Shown here: piece after piece, positions 7,367-11,333 of the stretch
Layout of the letters: every line of letters starts with the position of its first letter
How positions within the stretch are numbered: the first letter of the stretch is position 1
Assembly: GCA_002172355.2 (NCBI GenBank)
Contig: NHGH02000008.1
Span: 1 to 12,115, forward strand
Direction of reading: 5' to 3'
From: Euryarchaeota archaeon TMED132
GTDB lineage: Archaea; Thermoplasmatota; Poseidoniia; Poseidoniales; Poseidoniaceae
DNA length: 12,115 bases
Notes under the pieces: generated by a model
The model's input: only the letters and a program-made list of their open reading frames with translations
The model's database searches: none
Told to the model about the DNA's origin: nothing
Translations under genes and position numbers: made by a program

Positions 7367-9142
7367 TCATTCAAAAAATCTTTCAAAAGAGGCACTCCAT
7401 TCGATTTTTGATTGTTCAAACCAATTCTTTGGACTTTCGTAAGAATTATCATTACCTTTTTTACGCTTCATCTTTACTCGCTGACTAATTAGTTTCCAAG
7501 CAGATTTTTCCCCTATGCCAGGAATTGCTTCTAATTGCTTTTGTGAAATATTATCATGATTCAGACCTGTCTCGACACCAGTTATCGATCTAGCTCCATG
7601 TCCAGTGATGATTATATTAGATTTAGTTTCAAGTGGAATGTGGTACTGTACGCCAATCAATATTGGATATGCTCCAATTTGGCGGCCGAAAGTAATTCCT
7701 GCTTTTCCACGACATAATTCTGAGGTATGCTCGATTTCTTGGTGCTTAGGCAGTCTGGTTCGGCCATCATGTGTCTCCCAATGCACATCGCATAACTGGC
7801 CACCCAGTGGGAATAATTCTTCAAGTAATGGTTTGTCGATAGTATCACGTACGCTGGTTTTGAAATCTTTAAATGCTTCTTGAGGTATCTCTTGAAAGCC
7901 TTCACCTTCTACTTGACGGATATTTATTCTTCTTAGTAACAACTCTTCTTTACGTATTTCATGCAATAAATCAAGATTGAGTTGGTAGGTTTCCTTGGTT
8001 TCCCCATTCAAGCCCGCAATGAAATTCAAGCCAGGTAGAAGTTTAGGAAGGCCTCTTTCTCCTCTTTCTTTACCATATTTATTGATTAGTCGAATTGCAT
8101 CTTTAAGTTGATTAGAGTCACAGTTTAGCCAATTTGCTTGGTGAACATTTGGGTCTGCGGATTCAAGTCCAAAAGAAAGTACCGCACCATCGGATAATGT
8201 TTCCACCAATGTTTTAGTTATCTCTTCTGAAGGTTCAATATTTTCAGCTATGATAGATGGATTACCATTATCGGTATGAAGGATTTCAAGACGCTCATCT
8301 TCTCGAAGTCCATGAAGTAACTTGGCAATAGGTTCAGGATTAGGTATTGGATACTCTAGATCTTTGACTCCTTCAGCCATGTATGTGTAAGTATCAGTCA
8401 TCCCGCCAAGGCGAACATGTTTGACGCCCATGTCATGGGCGATCTGAACCTCTTGGATAATATCTTCAGGAGTACGCCAAATTGGTATTCCTTTTTTCGG
8501 CTCTATACAGAATTTACATCCCCTCTTAAATCGGACACAGCCTTGGTAAACTTCGACTTCATATGTTAGAGGACCGGGCTTTTCTTGATTTCCTAAATCT
8601 GGATGAAATTCGACAGCCTTACTTTTAGCTCCAAGATGTGCCCACTTTGTCCATTGCTGGGAATTTCTACGACAGTGTTTCCACTGACCACTTTCAAGAT
8701 AGTTATTCAATGTGGCATCGGTATCTTGTACGGCTAAAAACAAATTTCTTCTCAGTGGATTCCAACCTTGCTGACGCCATCCGCGAATCGCCCATCCACC
8801 TAGTATAGCCGGAATTTCAGAAGGTAATTGCCGAACGACATTTTGCATTTCTTTGAGTGAAATAGGAGTTCCTCTGAGATACCTGCCAGGGACTACTGCA
8901 CCTGCAATACAAGCAAACCCCTCTATTTGTGACATTAATTTTTGAACGCCATCCTCGCCCTTTTGTTCAACAAAATTGCGCCATTGGTCAATTGTCATGT
9001 AGCGGTAATCGATTTTGGCATCCTCGAGTACCCCGCAAAGGTATCTGATATGGAACCCAACATATGGTGGAACACCAAAAGCAGCAGGTTCGTCTTCATA
9101 GCCATCAAGAACCAACCACTTTGGGTCACTCTGCTCGGCCAT
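7367..9142 (-). CDS. Radical SAM protein with C-terminal helix-hairpin-helix (COG1031-like)
   Basis: A 591-residue enzyme of unknown reaction. The N-terminal part (about 1-185) looks like a Rossmann-type region (LVLDGYED at 10-17; ILGGWAIRG at 113-121). The radical SAM core follows, with GCVRFKRGCKFCIEP (201-215). The cluster ligands are probably Cys202, Cys209 and Cys212, spaced C-x6-C-x2-C instead of the canonical C-x3-C-x2-C; I recall this wider spacing from the archaeal COG1031 family. Further core motifs include VRLGGMTDTY (243-252), LEILHTDN (285-292), LSFGLESAD (322-330) and PGLNFIAGLNGET (370-382). The C-terminal NISQKQLEAIPGIGEKSAWKL region (531-551) is a helix-hairpin-helix of the kind that binds DNA or RNA backbone, followed by a basic tail. 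It starts 24 bases after the stop of the Csl4-RRM gene, so an operon is likely and a nucleic-acid substrate is a reasonable guess. The ATG at 9142 is the first ATG after the upstream gene; no Shine-Dalgarno is seen. Confidence 0.85.
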   Translation of the reverse strand: MAEQSDPKWLVLDGYEDEPAAFGVPPYVGFHIRYLCGVLEDAKIDYRYMTIDQWRNFVEQKGEDGVQKLMSQIEGFACIAGAVVPGRYLRGTPISLKEMQNVVRQLPSEIPAILGGWAIRGWRQQGWNPLRRNLFLAVQDTDATLNNYLESGQWKHCRRNSQQWTKWAHLGAKSKAVEFHPDLGNQEKPGPLTYEVEVYQGCVRFKRGCKFCIEPKKGIPIWRTPEDIIQEVQIAHDMGVKHVRLGGMTDTYTYMAEGVKDLEYPIPNPEPIAKLLHGLREDERLEILHTDNGNPSIIAENIEPSEEITKTLVETLSDGAVLSFGLESADPNVHQANWLNCDSNQLKDAIRLINKYGKERGERGLPKLLPGLNFIAGLNGETKETYQLNLDLLHEIRKEELLLRRINIRQVEGEGFQEIPQEAFKDFKTSVRDTIDKPLLEELFPLGGQLCDVHWETHDGRTRLPKHQEIEHTSELCRGKAGITFGRQIGAYPILIGVQYHIPLETKSNIIITGHGARSITGVETGLNHDNISQKQLEAIPGIGEKSAWKLISQRVKMKRKKGNDNSYESPKNWFEQSKIEWSASFERFFE

Positions 9143-9166: not shown

Positions 9167-10585
9167 TCAATCCTTCTTAGGTCGAGGTCTTCGCTTACGC
9201 TTTTTGGAATCTTCTTCTTCTTCACGCATAGCTTTCATTTCTCTAGAGGATTTTTCTGGTTTGCCACCGCTATTATTGTTGTTACGCTTCTTCTGTTGAG
9301 CAACATCAACACGGATTTTACGTCCAAGCAATTCACTACCATTGACTGATTTGACGATTTCTTCAACCTTGTCTTTTTCTTTAACAAATGCAAAAGCGAA
9401 ACCTTTCGGCTTTCCAGCATTATCTGTGATTATGGTCAGTCCAGTAATTGTTGCAACACCTTTGAAAACTTCTTTGAGTTGGTCTTCAGTTGCTTTGAAT
9501 GGAAGGTTTCCAATGTATAATTTAGCTCCTTCAGGGTCTTTTCTCTTACCCTTTTTACCTTTCTTATCATCACTATCGGCATCTCTGACACCGATTCGAC
9601 GTCCATTGATTTTGTGACCATCAAGTTCAGCAACAGCAGCATCTGCTTCTGATTTTTCACTGTATGTAACAAATCCAAATCCACGGTTAGCACCGTTGTC
9701 ATCAGTAGGAACAATACAATCGCTCATATCACCGAATTTGCCGAACATCTCTCTTAGTTCATCGGTTCCGATTTCTCTTGGAAGTCCGCCGATGAATAGT
9801 TTACATCCAGGACTATGACGAGGTCTTTGCGGGCCACGTCCACTGCCACCTTCTCCTTCGAATCTGAAATAGGTTCTTTCACGGCCATCTTCTCTAACAT
9901 CTTCAGCAATGAATGTTGCACGGCCTGATGGCCCCTTACCAAACATCGATTCAGCGGCTGAACCCCAACGCTTTCCAGAATTATTCAAAGCACTAGCACC
10001 TTGGTCTAATTCAGCCCATCCTGCTGAGAAGTTATCGGCAAGTGCTCGATATGCTTGGTATCCACAAGTTTCACACTTAACGTTCCAATCGCCATCAAGA
10101 TTAGCAACTAGATTTTCTCCACAAGGTGGACAAATAGCATGTAGTACTCCGCAATCATCTCTTTCACGGAAATCGATTCTTACTACAGGTTCGACTTCCT
10201 TGATCAGTGCACGGCAAACATCTCGCCTTCTAACAGCATCAGCAGTTTGATGCATATATCTGTCAACTATTCCAGTTACATGGAATTGTCCGTATAGATG
10301 ATTTGGCTGAATACTTCCTGGTTTTCCTTCAATAGCCAGAATCATTGCTTCGCCATTTTTTTCATTGAGTTTTACGATTTCACAAATTACAGTGTCACCA
10401 ACAACTGGACTAACAAGTTCTTTTCGTGGCATTACTACGCCAAATCCTTCTTCAATAGCAAAGACGCCAATCGTAGTTGCAACGATCTTTCCGTCAATTT
10501 CAATCGTTCCTTCACCAGCCGCACATTTGGCAGCTGTTGATACTTGCATTCCTGGGGTGACGAGGCTCGCCGTCATGTTATTCAT
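9167..10585 (-). CDS. csl4: Exosome subunit Csl4 fused to two RRM domains
   Basis: 472 residues in one uninterrupted frame. Residues about 9-178 match archaeal exosome cap subunit Csl4: N-terminal domain (VTPGMQV at 9-15, GEGTIEIDGKIVAT at 24-37), an S1-like RNA-binding barrel (about 60-145; VVGDTVICEIV at 61-71, RRRDVCRALI at 119-128) and a complete zinc ribbon (Cys152, Cys155, Cys171, Cys174). A linker of about 85 residues leads to two RNA recognition motifs absent from ordinary Csl4. RRM1 has RNP2 LFIGGL (263-268) and RNP1 RGFGFVTY (301-308). RRM2 has LYIGNL (356-361) and KGFAFAFV (394-401). The C-terminus (430-472) is a charged, Lys/Arg-rich disordered tail. Known family role: sits on the RNase PH-like ring with Rrp4 and links to DnaG. 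The RRMs probably recruit single-stranded RNA; that is inference. Start uncertain: ATG at 10585 or at 10576, the latter with AGGAA at a more normal distance. Normal archaeal Csl4 is under 200 residues. Confidence 0.9.
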   Translation of the reverse strand: MNNMTASLVTPGMQVSTAAKCAAGEGTIEIDGKIVATTIGVFAIEEGFGVVMPRKELVSPVVGDTVICEIVKLNEKNGEAMILAIEGKPGSIQPNHLYGQFHVTGIVDRYMHQTADAVRRRDVCRALIKEVEPVVRIDFRERDDCGVLHAICPPCGENLVANLDGDWNVKCETCGYQAYRALADNFSAGWAELDQGASALNNSGKRWGSAAESMFGKGPSGRATFIAEDVREDGRERTYFRFEGEGGSGRGPQRPRHSPGCKLFIGGLPREIGTDELREMFGKFGDMSDCIVPTDDNGANRGFGFVTYSEKSEADAAVAELDGHKINGRRIGVRDADSDDKKGKKGKRKDPEGAKLYIGNLPFKATEDQLKEVFKGVATITGLTIITDNAGKPKGFAFAFVKEKDKVEEIVKSVNGSELLGRKIRVDVAQQKKRNNNNSGGKPEKSSREMKAMREEEEDSKKRKRRPRPKKD

Positions 10586-10697: not shown

Positions 10698-11333
10698 TTA
10701 TTCACTCTCTATGATTTTTGCATCGCCAGTTCTATGAAATCTCCAGCACCTAGCATCGGTTGTTGATTTTTTCTTAGAATGATGAGAATATATCGGAGGC
10801 AATCTAAAATCGGTTTCAAAGACAATTTCTCCTTCGTATCCAAAATCCTTTGCTATCGCAGATACATGCTTGGCCTTGGCGGAATGAAGGACATAAATCG
10901 CAGTAGCATCAAGTGAAAAGGCCAATTCTAGTAAAGGCCTGTCAGCCTTTTCGGTTTGAAATCCCCATGGCGGATTCATTACAACGATGTCAGTTTGTTT
11001 GGGGATTTCTAGTTCTTGAGAGCCAATTACAGCATGAATGGTTTCAATTTGAGCACTAAACTTTTGATTGATTTTTTCAGTATTTTGCTTTGAAATTAAA
11101 CATGCTTCTTCATCCGCTTCTACTAGAATTACTTTTTTTGCCCCTAGAAATACAGTACCCAAACCGAGAATTCCATTACCTGAACCAAGGTCCACTACGA
11201 TTCTATTTTCTAGATTGTCGAGTTGGTCAATGGCAAGGAGCCAAAAAGCGGCTAAGTCACCCTCTGTGGCGTATTGCTCTAATTCGACTGAATTATATGG
11301 ATGTGGCTTGAGTTTTGATAACTCTATGGCCAA
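10698..11333 (-). CDS. METTL5/COG2263-like RNA adenine-N6 methyltransferase
   Basis: 211-residue class I S-adenosylmethionine-dependent methyltransferase. Motifs: LEQYATEGDLAA (18-29), the family hallmark ahead of the SAM pocket; VVDLGSGNGILGLG (46-59), the glycine-rich SAM loop; acidic Glu72 after strand 2 (VEADEEA); and NPPWG (120-124), the catalytic motif of N6-adenine methylases, where METTL5 usually has NPPF. ADRPLLELAF (130-139) and YVLHSAKAKHV (147-157) also match the family. Human METTL5 modifies A1832 of 18S rRNA together with TRMT112, so small-subunit rRNA is the likely target. The start is a TTG at 11333: the frame is closed by a TGA only 18 bases upstream, no ATG fits before the LEQY motif, and the N-terminal length agrees with relatives. 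It lies 19 bases after the zinc-ribbon gene, so the two are probably co-transcribed. It is followed by a 112-base gap before csl4. Confidence 0.87.
   Translation of the reverse strand: MAIELSKLKPHPYNSVELEQYATEGDLAAFWLLAIDQLDNLENRIVVDLGSGNGILGLGTVFLGAKKVILVEADEEACLISKQNTEKINQKFSAQIETIHAVIGSQELEIPKQTDIVVMNPPWGFQTEKADRPLLELAFSLDATAIYVLHSAKAKHVSAIAKDFGYEGEIVFETDFRLPPIYSHHSKKKSTTDARCWRFHRTGDAKIIESE

Follow-up and report, generated by a model that had tools for sequence, protein, structure and literature searches.

A natural fusion of the archaeal exosome cap subunit Csl4 to two RNA recognition motifs in the order Poseidoniales

In the genome of Euryarchaeota archaeon TMED132, the exosome cap subunit Csl4 is encoded as one continuous reading frame with two RNA recognition motif (RRM) domains and a basic tail. 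The gene lies in the window analysed here, a stretch of 12,115 nucleotides at the start of contig NHGH02000008.1, and the fusion is real, present throughout the searched genomes of the order, and under strong selection. Because the RRMs are built into the cap protein itself, the RNA-degrading machine of these archaea probably has an RNA-grabbing arm of its own, not one borrowed from a separate protein. The reading favoured here, with reasonable if not strong confidence, is that the RRM arm captures single-stranded RNA at the exosome cap and feeds it to the Rrp41/Rrp42 pore; RNA binding, RNA specificity and association with the exosome are what we infer for the natural protein. Both halves of the protein are already named in databases, where a close homologue bears the label "RNA recognition motif-containing protein/exosome complex RNA-binding protein Csl4", and the open-licence literature that was searched yielded no description of a Csl4 with RRMs. 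New here are a second build of the fusion in the sister family, consisting of a zinc finger and one RRM, the finding that the class outgroup has an unadorned Csl4 alongside a small, separately encoded RRM protein, and a highly constrained linker at residues 191-233.

Structure of the fusion gene

The frame occupies positions 9167..10585 of the minus strand and comprises 472 codons with zero internal stops. Translation probably starts at Met4 (position 10576), a start that is favoured because homologue P0053 begins at this methionine, and because an AGGAA motif lies 9 bases 5' of the Met4 ATG, yet abuts the first ATG. An earlier note on this DNA had placed a Csl4, two RRMs and a basic tail in one frame, and profiles, fold, gene neighbourhood and recurrence all bear this out; its domain boundaries were also correct, save for the small adjustment of the start.

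All features of the gene are on the minus strand. The Csl4 part (residues 4-190, 10016..10576) consists of an N-terminal domain, an S1-like barrel and a zinc ribbon (10064..10132), and is followed by linker element A (residues 191-233, 9887..10015), a possible docking element, and by the Gly/Arg-rich linker B (residues 234-258, 9812..9886), which is mostly disordered in the AF2 model. RRM1 (residues 259-338, 9572..9811, with LFIGGL and RGFGFVTY motifs) and RRM2 (residues 353-430, 9296..9529, with LYIGNL and KGFAFAFV motifs) lead into a basic tail (residues 431-472, 9170..9295) that has a predicted helix at residues 447-460 and is the least constrained part of the protein. The Csl4 part is modelled confidently, with 10-residue block means of 78-95 past the first block, and the RRMs with moderate confidence (about 72-85), while parts of the linkers, including residues 218-232 of element A, fall below a pLDDT of 50. 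The pTM of 0.43 indicates that the mutual placement of the domains is not fixed by the model.

The Pfam RRM_1 model matches the protein twice, with 130.4 bits and an E-value of 2.1e-38 for the whole protein; the two PF00076 copies score 77.6 and 60.6 bits (cut-off 20.7), and the fused part has the RRM fold. Among 68 distinct own-family sequences the RNP aromatics F264, F303, F305 and Y357 are present in 68/68, and F396 and F398 in 67/68, with one gap. The RRMs would bind single-stranded RNA to judge from these RNP residues; RRMs are also able to bind proteins or DNA.

The Csl4 half

Identity of the N-terminal half as a Csl4 ortholog is established by profile, fold and gene neighbourhood. The NCBIfam Csl4 model NF034126 matches residues 8-186 with 87.7 bits when the whole protein is searched and 91.1 bits in a six-frame search, on either side of its cut-off of 90, which is exceeded in 40/59 genomes of the order; the Pfam ECR1_N model scores 26.5 bits, slightly below its cut-off of 27. 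When a profile built from 52 relatives was compared with PDB sequences, the top match among solved structures was the Csl4 of Archaeoglobus fulgidus (2ba1_A; 148.7 bits over residues 9-192), and both fold and homology place the protein with the solved archaeal Csl4. Csl4 was absent among the 60 matches listed from a single-sequence PDB search, which were RRM proteins only. The zinc ribbon cysteines C152, C155, C171 and C174 are invariant in all 68 distinct own-family sequences. A competing identity as Rrp4 was ruled out for the N-terminal part, which scores 24.3 bits with that model; residues 1-190 thus fit Csl4 over Rrp4.

The A. fulgidus protein (AF_0206; PDB 2ba1, 3m7n, 3m85) resembles the present one over residues ~6-192, sharing the N-terminal domain, the S1-like barrel and the four-cysteine zinc ribbon, but it is 179 residues long and stops at the zinc ribbon, whereas the fusion adds ~280 residues that comprise the linker element, two RRMs and the basic tail.

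Distribution within the order and the phylum

The relatives set consisted of 59 genomes of the order, 35 from the window's own genus (the window's genome included) and 24 from the order's other family, which we take to be Thalassarchaeaceae. RRM matches were found in 54 of them, and comparison of contigs and frame lengths places RRM and Csl4 in one frame in 53/59, that is, in 53 of the 54 genomes with RRMs. The joined form thus recurs through the order, and the two-gene arrangement that would have spoken against it is found nowhere in the searched genomes of the order, save that in G010 RRM and Csl4 fall on separate contigs, which we attribute to contig ends. Five genomes (G012, G014, G017, G034 and G042) have no RRM, and their Csl4-model matches are short or partial, and Rrp4-like where placed; we interpret them as gaps in the assemblies. 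None of the 59 genomes showed an RRM outside the fusion gene.

A wider sample of the phylum comprised 194 genomes: 48 of the order, 5 from the family that forms the class outgroup, presumably Marine Group III, and 141 others. Within the order, 47 of the 48 genomes had RRMs; the frames span 301-598 residues, G161 having an extra piece of 90, and 13/13 own-family loci drawn from this sample are fusions. All five genomes of the class outgroup have a separate RRM frame of 85-105 residues, and plain Csl4 frames of 185-214 residues were found in four of them among the matches listed; those four Csl4s (L145-L148) stop two residues past the modelled domain. Elsewhere in the Thermoplasmatota RRMs occur in 16/141 genomes, only in frames of 81-158 residues. 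The earlier note's statement that RRMs are scarce in archaea therefore holds for the phylum outside this class, the whole-genome searches having been made within the phylum. Searches with the Csl4 part for fusions elsewhere, which depend on shared 5-residue words, returned in one case 10 matches, all with PF00076, and in another 80 matches, none with PF00076.

Assembly error and chance are both excluded by the recurrence of the fusion in dozens of independent assemblies, including the 2.06-Mb single-contig genome G073. The idea that assembly or annotation had merged two adjacent genes is accordingly vanishingly improbable, because the dozens of assemblies include two layouts of the fusion and dN/dS is low across the joint.

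Gene neighbourhood and origin in place

The fusion gene occupies the ancestral Csl4 slot. Upstream of it lies a gene for a small methyltransferase (10698..11333, minus strand), an ancestral neighbour of Csl4 in the phylum, which adjoins Csl4 in 20/20 sister-family loci and in 19/24 loci outside the order, three of the latter having had Csl4 itself placed in a separate reading of the loci. Downstream in both families of the order is a gene for a radical SAM protein of 591 residues (7367..9142, minus strand in the window), found beside Csl4 in 19/20 sister loci and in 0/24 loci outside the order, within a few kilobases of flank that is in some cases cut at contig ends. The common slot and neighbours indicate that the fusion most likely arose in place in the ancestor of the order. 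In L136, from another own-family genus (G154), the fusion is kept, the methyltransferase gene is on the opposite strand and the usual gene order is broken. At the far end of the window, a frame at 3-2291 that runs off the window carries B12-binding, MeaB GTPase and mutase domains, an arrangement like that of the IcmF-type fused mutases.

Two builds of the arm and the history of the RRMs

In the window's own family the build consists of Csl4, linker element A, RRM1, RRM2 and a basic tail. Sister-family proteins also begin with Csl4 and a linker whose core is related, but continue with a treble-clef zinc finger (CxxC-x17-CxxC), a single RRM and an Arg/Gly tail. The zinc finger (PF23477) was found in 23/24 sister-family genomes, within the fusion frames, and in 0/35 own-family genomes. 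TIGR04272 is matched by 12/17 members of alignment A1, which contains 17 sequences from both families, and 12 is also the number of its sister-family rows. In other Thermoplasmatota, RGG-rich Csl4 tails of 55-129 residues, which may bind RNA, occur in 5/44 loci (L160, L162, L163, L164 and L176), a frequency biased upward by the choice of some loci for their long frames. Taken together, the zinc finger-RRM build and the RGG tails suggest that the C-terminus of Csl4 repeatedly acquires RNA-binding add-ons in the phylum.

Small stand-alone RRM proteins of the NF058537 Rbp_regulator type belong to the same RRM family, and occur in the class outgroup and in the 16 RRM-bearing genomes among the 141 other Thermoplasmatota, but differ from the fusion in having frames of 81-158 residues with one RRM, apart from Csl4. 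The source of the fused RRMs was probably a small stand-alone protein like that of the sister family in the class, a source not itself visible in the tree. In a careful tree of 59 of 95 RRM rows, from which 6 long or doubtful rows were left out and 30 own-family near-copies thinned, the fused RRMs separate from the phylum's stand-alone RRMs with support of 100/99. RRM1 clusters with the lone RRM of the sister-family proteins (91/88), but two alternatives were not rejected (AU p 0.07 and 0.08). A quick tree of all 95 rows joins RRM1 to the sister RRM weakly (63) and RRM2 to the stand-alone RRMs equally weakly (63).

These distributions bear on a rival reading, under which the RRMs serve generally as an RNA chaperone or RNA-storage module that has replaced a stand-alone RRM protein, and the tie to the exosome does not steer degradation. 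Such a replacement would fit the presence of a stand-alone RRM protein in all five class-outgroup genomes and the complete lack of RRMs outside the fusion in the 59 genomes of the order. We nevertheless consider it unlikely, since the fused RRMs separate from the stand-alone ones in the tree, the sister family's different arm retains the same linker core, suggesting a role tied to Csl4, and an engineered Csl4 fusion altered degradation in a study of Sulfolobus solfataricus (PMC4227792).

Constraint on the RRMs and on linker element A

Conservation was assessed in 68 distinct own-family sequences, obtained from 88 rows by dropping identical ones. Over at most 146 close pairs, the median dN/dS is 0.024 for element A, 0.030 for RRM1, 0.042 for RRM2, 0.060 for linker B, 0.061 for the Csl4 part and 0.154 for the tail. 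Of the 2278 possible pairings among the distinct sequences, 146 with a whole-gene dS of 0.15-1.2 entered this simple Nei-Gojobori count, and many of them are not independent of one another. Both RRMs are under strong purifying selection, and the most constrained stretch of the protein is the 43 residues of element A, a result that disposes of the suspicion that the linker might be an assembly scar.

Residues 191-233 of the window's protein have no Pfam or NCBIfam family match, and no relative of element A was found among PDB sequences (best E-value 0.78); a sub-threshold DUF5558 match covers the element in one sister protein (17.3 bits, cut-off 25). In the 17 sequences of A1, residues L200, N201, G204, R206, W207, D229 and R231 are invariant across both families, and the core LN..G.RW is common to both (sister-family loci L084-L103). 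A search for element A over 21 genomes found it in the fusion gene only, in 13/21, with one sister-family match at an E-value of 0.05 and none in the other 7 sister-family genomes or in G012; since this search is nearly blank for the sister family, the sharing of the element rests on A1. Element A may be a docking element that docks or orients the arm, a possibility to be read alongside its partly low-confidence model.

The tighter constraint on element A than on the RRMs also lends something to the view that the arm is mainly a platform for docking proteins or the ribosome, recruiting a helicase, DnaG or a modification enzyme, with RNA binding secondary. RRMs can bind proteins, and the order's DnaG has a divergent C-terminal domain. 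The RNA-stacking RNP aromatics are invariant, however, which docking of proteins does not demand, and this platform reading is judged quite unlikely.

The rest of the exosome and DnaG

In the nearest relative, G025, the genes psmA, SBDS, Rrp4, Rrp41 and Rrp42 stand in a row, with Rrp41 above the cut-off of its curated model and Rrp4 and Rrp42 below theirs. RNase_PH matches are present in 59/59 genomes of the order. The window's own bin, which is 74.6% complete, has no Rrp4 and no Rrp41/Rrp42; relatives have them, and their absence here is ascribed to incompleteness. A stand-alone RNase PH, additional to the exosome Rrp41/Rrp42 of the order, is encoded at L196:1208-2032 (G000:C34; TIGR01966, 244.5 bits against a cut-off of 141.5), and third RNase_PH matches occur in many relatives.

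Profile searches of the 59 genomes identify the fused gene as the sole Csl4 candidate in those genomes of the order that have Rrp4, Rrp41 and Rrp42. The remaining matches to the Csl4 model are Rrp4-like (Rrp4 being confirmed in G025 only) or weak and partial, and in G046 an incomplete second copy of the fusion lies where a contig ends. One could suppose from the bin without other exosome subunits, and from a Csl4 part that scores only near the curated cut-off, that the fused protein acts for the most part away from the exosome, binding or regulating RNA as a free protein that has kept its Csl4 body. This is very unlikely, given that no other Csl4 candidate exists where the other exosome genes do and that the N-terminal ring-binding domain is strongly constrained.

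DnaG is found above cut-off in 53/59 genomes, the window's included (locus L200:1334-2599), and the RRM arm as a stand-in for a missing DnaG is thereby ruled out. In S. solfataricus the DnaG C-terminal domain binds the Csl4 exosome (PMC4227792). Where this domain was scored separately it reaches 17-27 bits in the order, whereas intact genes from other parts of the phylum score 51-61 bits. This divergence is no more than a lead, because the DnaG core has diverged as well and in some of the order's genomes the alignment runs from one end to the other. The earlier suggestion that the RRMs replace a separate helper therefore survives in part: the outgroup's separate small RRM protein is absent from the order, but the gene for DnaG, the helper already known, has been kept.

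How the RRM arm may work

Under the reading favoured here, in which the arm captures RNA for the pore, Csl4 would, as in other archaea, dock through its N-terminal domain on the Rrp41/Rrp42 hexamer, and linker element A would dock or orient the arm. The two RRMs would extend on flexible tethers and bind single-stranded RNA, raising the local RNA concentration, and perhaps exerting RNA choice, at the pore, after which the RNA 3' end would be threaded through to the sites in Rrp41. With a trimer of Csl4 on the hexamer, the complex would bear six RRMs.

Support for this scheme comes from an engineered protein, Csl4-NT of S. solfataricus, in which an RNA-binding domain of DnaG was placed on the C-terminus of Csl4 and conferred poly(A) binding and preference; exosomes with the engineered Csl4 broke down poly(rA) more quickly than those with unfused Csl4, whether or not DnaG was present (PMC4227792). 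The likeness lies in a C-terminal RNA-binding domain that alters preference and rate, with the difference that Csl4-NT is man-made with the DnaG N-terminal domain, whereas the present fusion is natural and has RRMs and a conserved linker. According to PMC7667871, 3' ends are bound at the cap and threaded into the ring, and it is this threading, together with the like topology of the engineered fusion, that leads us to see the RRM arm as a part that captures single-stranded RNA and passes it to the pore. Counted against such a capture arm are the continued presence of DnaG, which makes the need for a second arm less evident, the absence of Rrp4 and Rrp41/Rrp42 from the window's own bin, the loose mutual placement of the domains in the model, the ability of RRMs to bind proteins or DNA, and the Csl4 and ECR1_N scores, which sit on the cut-off line.

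A bolder version, which we regard as rather improbable, holds that RNA recruitment has moved from DnaG into Csl4 by way of an RRM arm on the new, highly constrained docking element (191-233), and that the different arms of the two families, RRM-RRM and zinc finger-RRM, give lineage-specific substrate choice. If true, the fusion would be a cis-acting archaeal counterpart of the eukaryotic RRM exosome adaptors.

Under the favoured reading, too, the arm would work like eukaryotic RNA-binding exosome adaptors. RBM7 and Nrd1 contain RRMs. RBM7 of NEXT and Nrd1/Nab3 are likewise RNA-binding proteins that deliver RNA to the exosome, but they are separate adaptors that act via Mtr4 or TRAMP, whereas here the RRMs are in cis on a cap subunit (PMC5886371, which names the Nab3 RRM). 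Archaeal DnaG is similar as an RNA-recruiting part that reaches the exosome via Csl4 (PMC4227792, PMC7667871), and differs in being a separate protein of another fold that these genomes still encode.

Significance

The choice of RNA by exosomes is mostly credited to separate helpers; here, in the searched genomes, the only RRMs of the order sit in a core cap subunit. The fusion is a natural parallel to the engineered Sulfolobus protein and to the eukaryotic RRM adaptors, and the conserved linker offers a definite new candidate for an interface. How the archaeal exosome chooses its RNA can thus be tested directly on a single protein and truncated forms of it.
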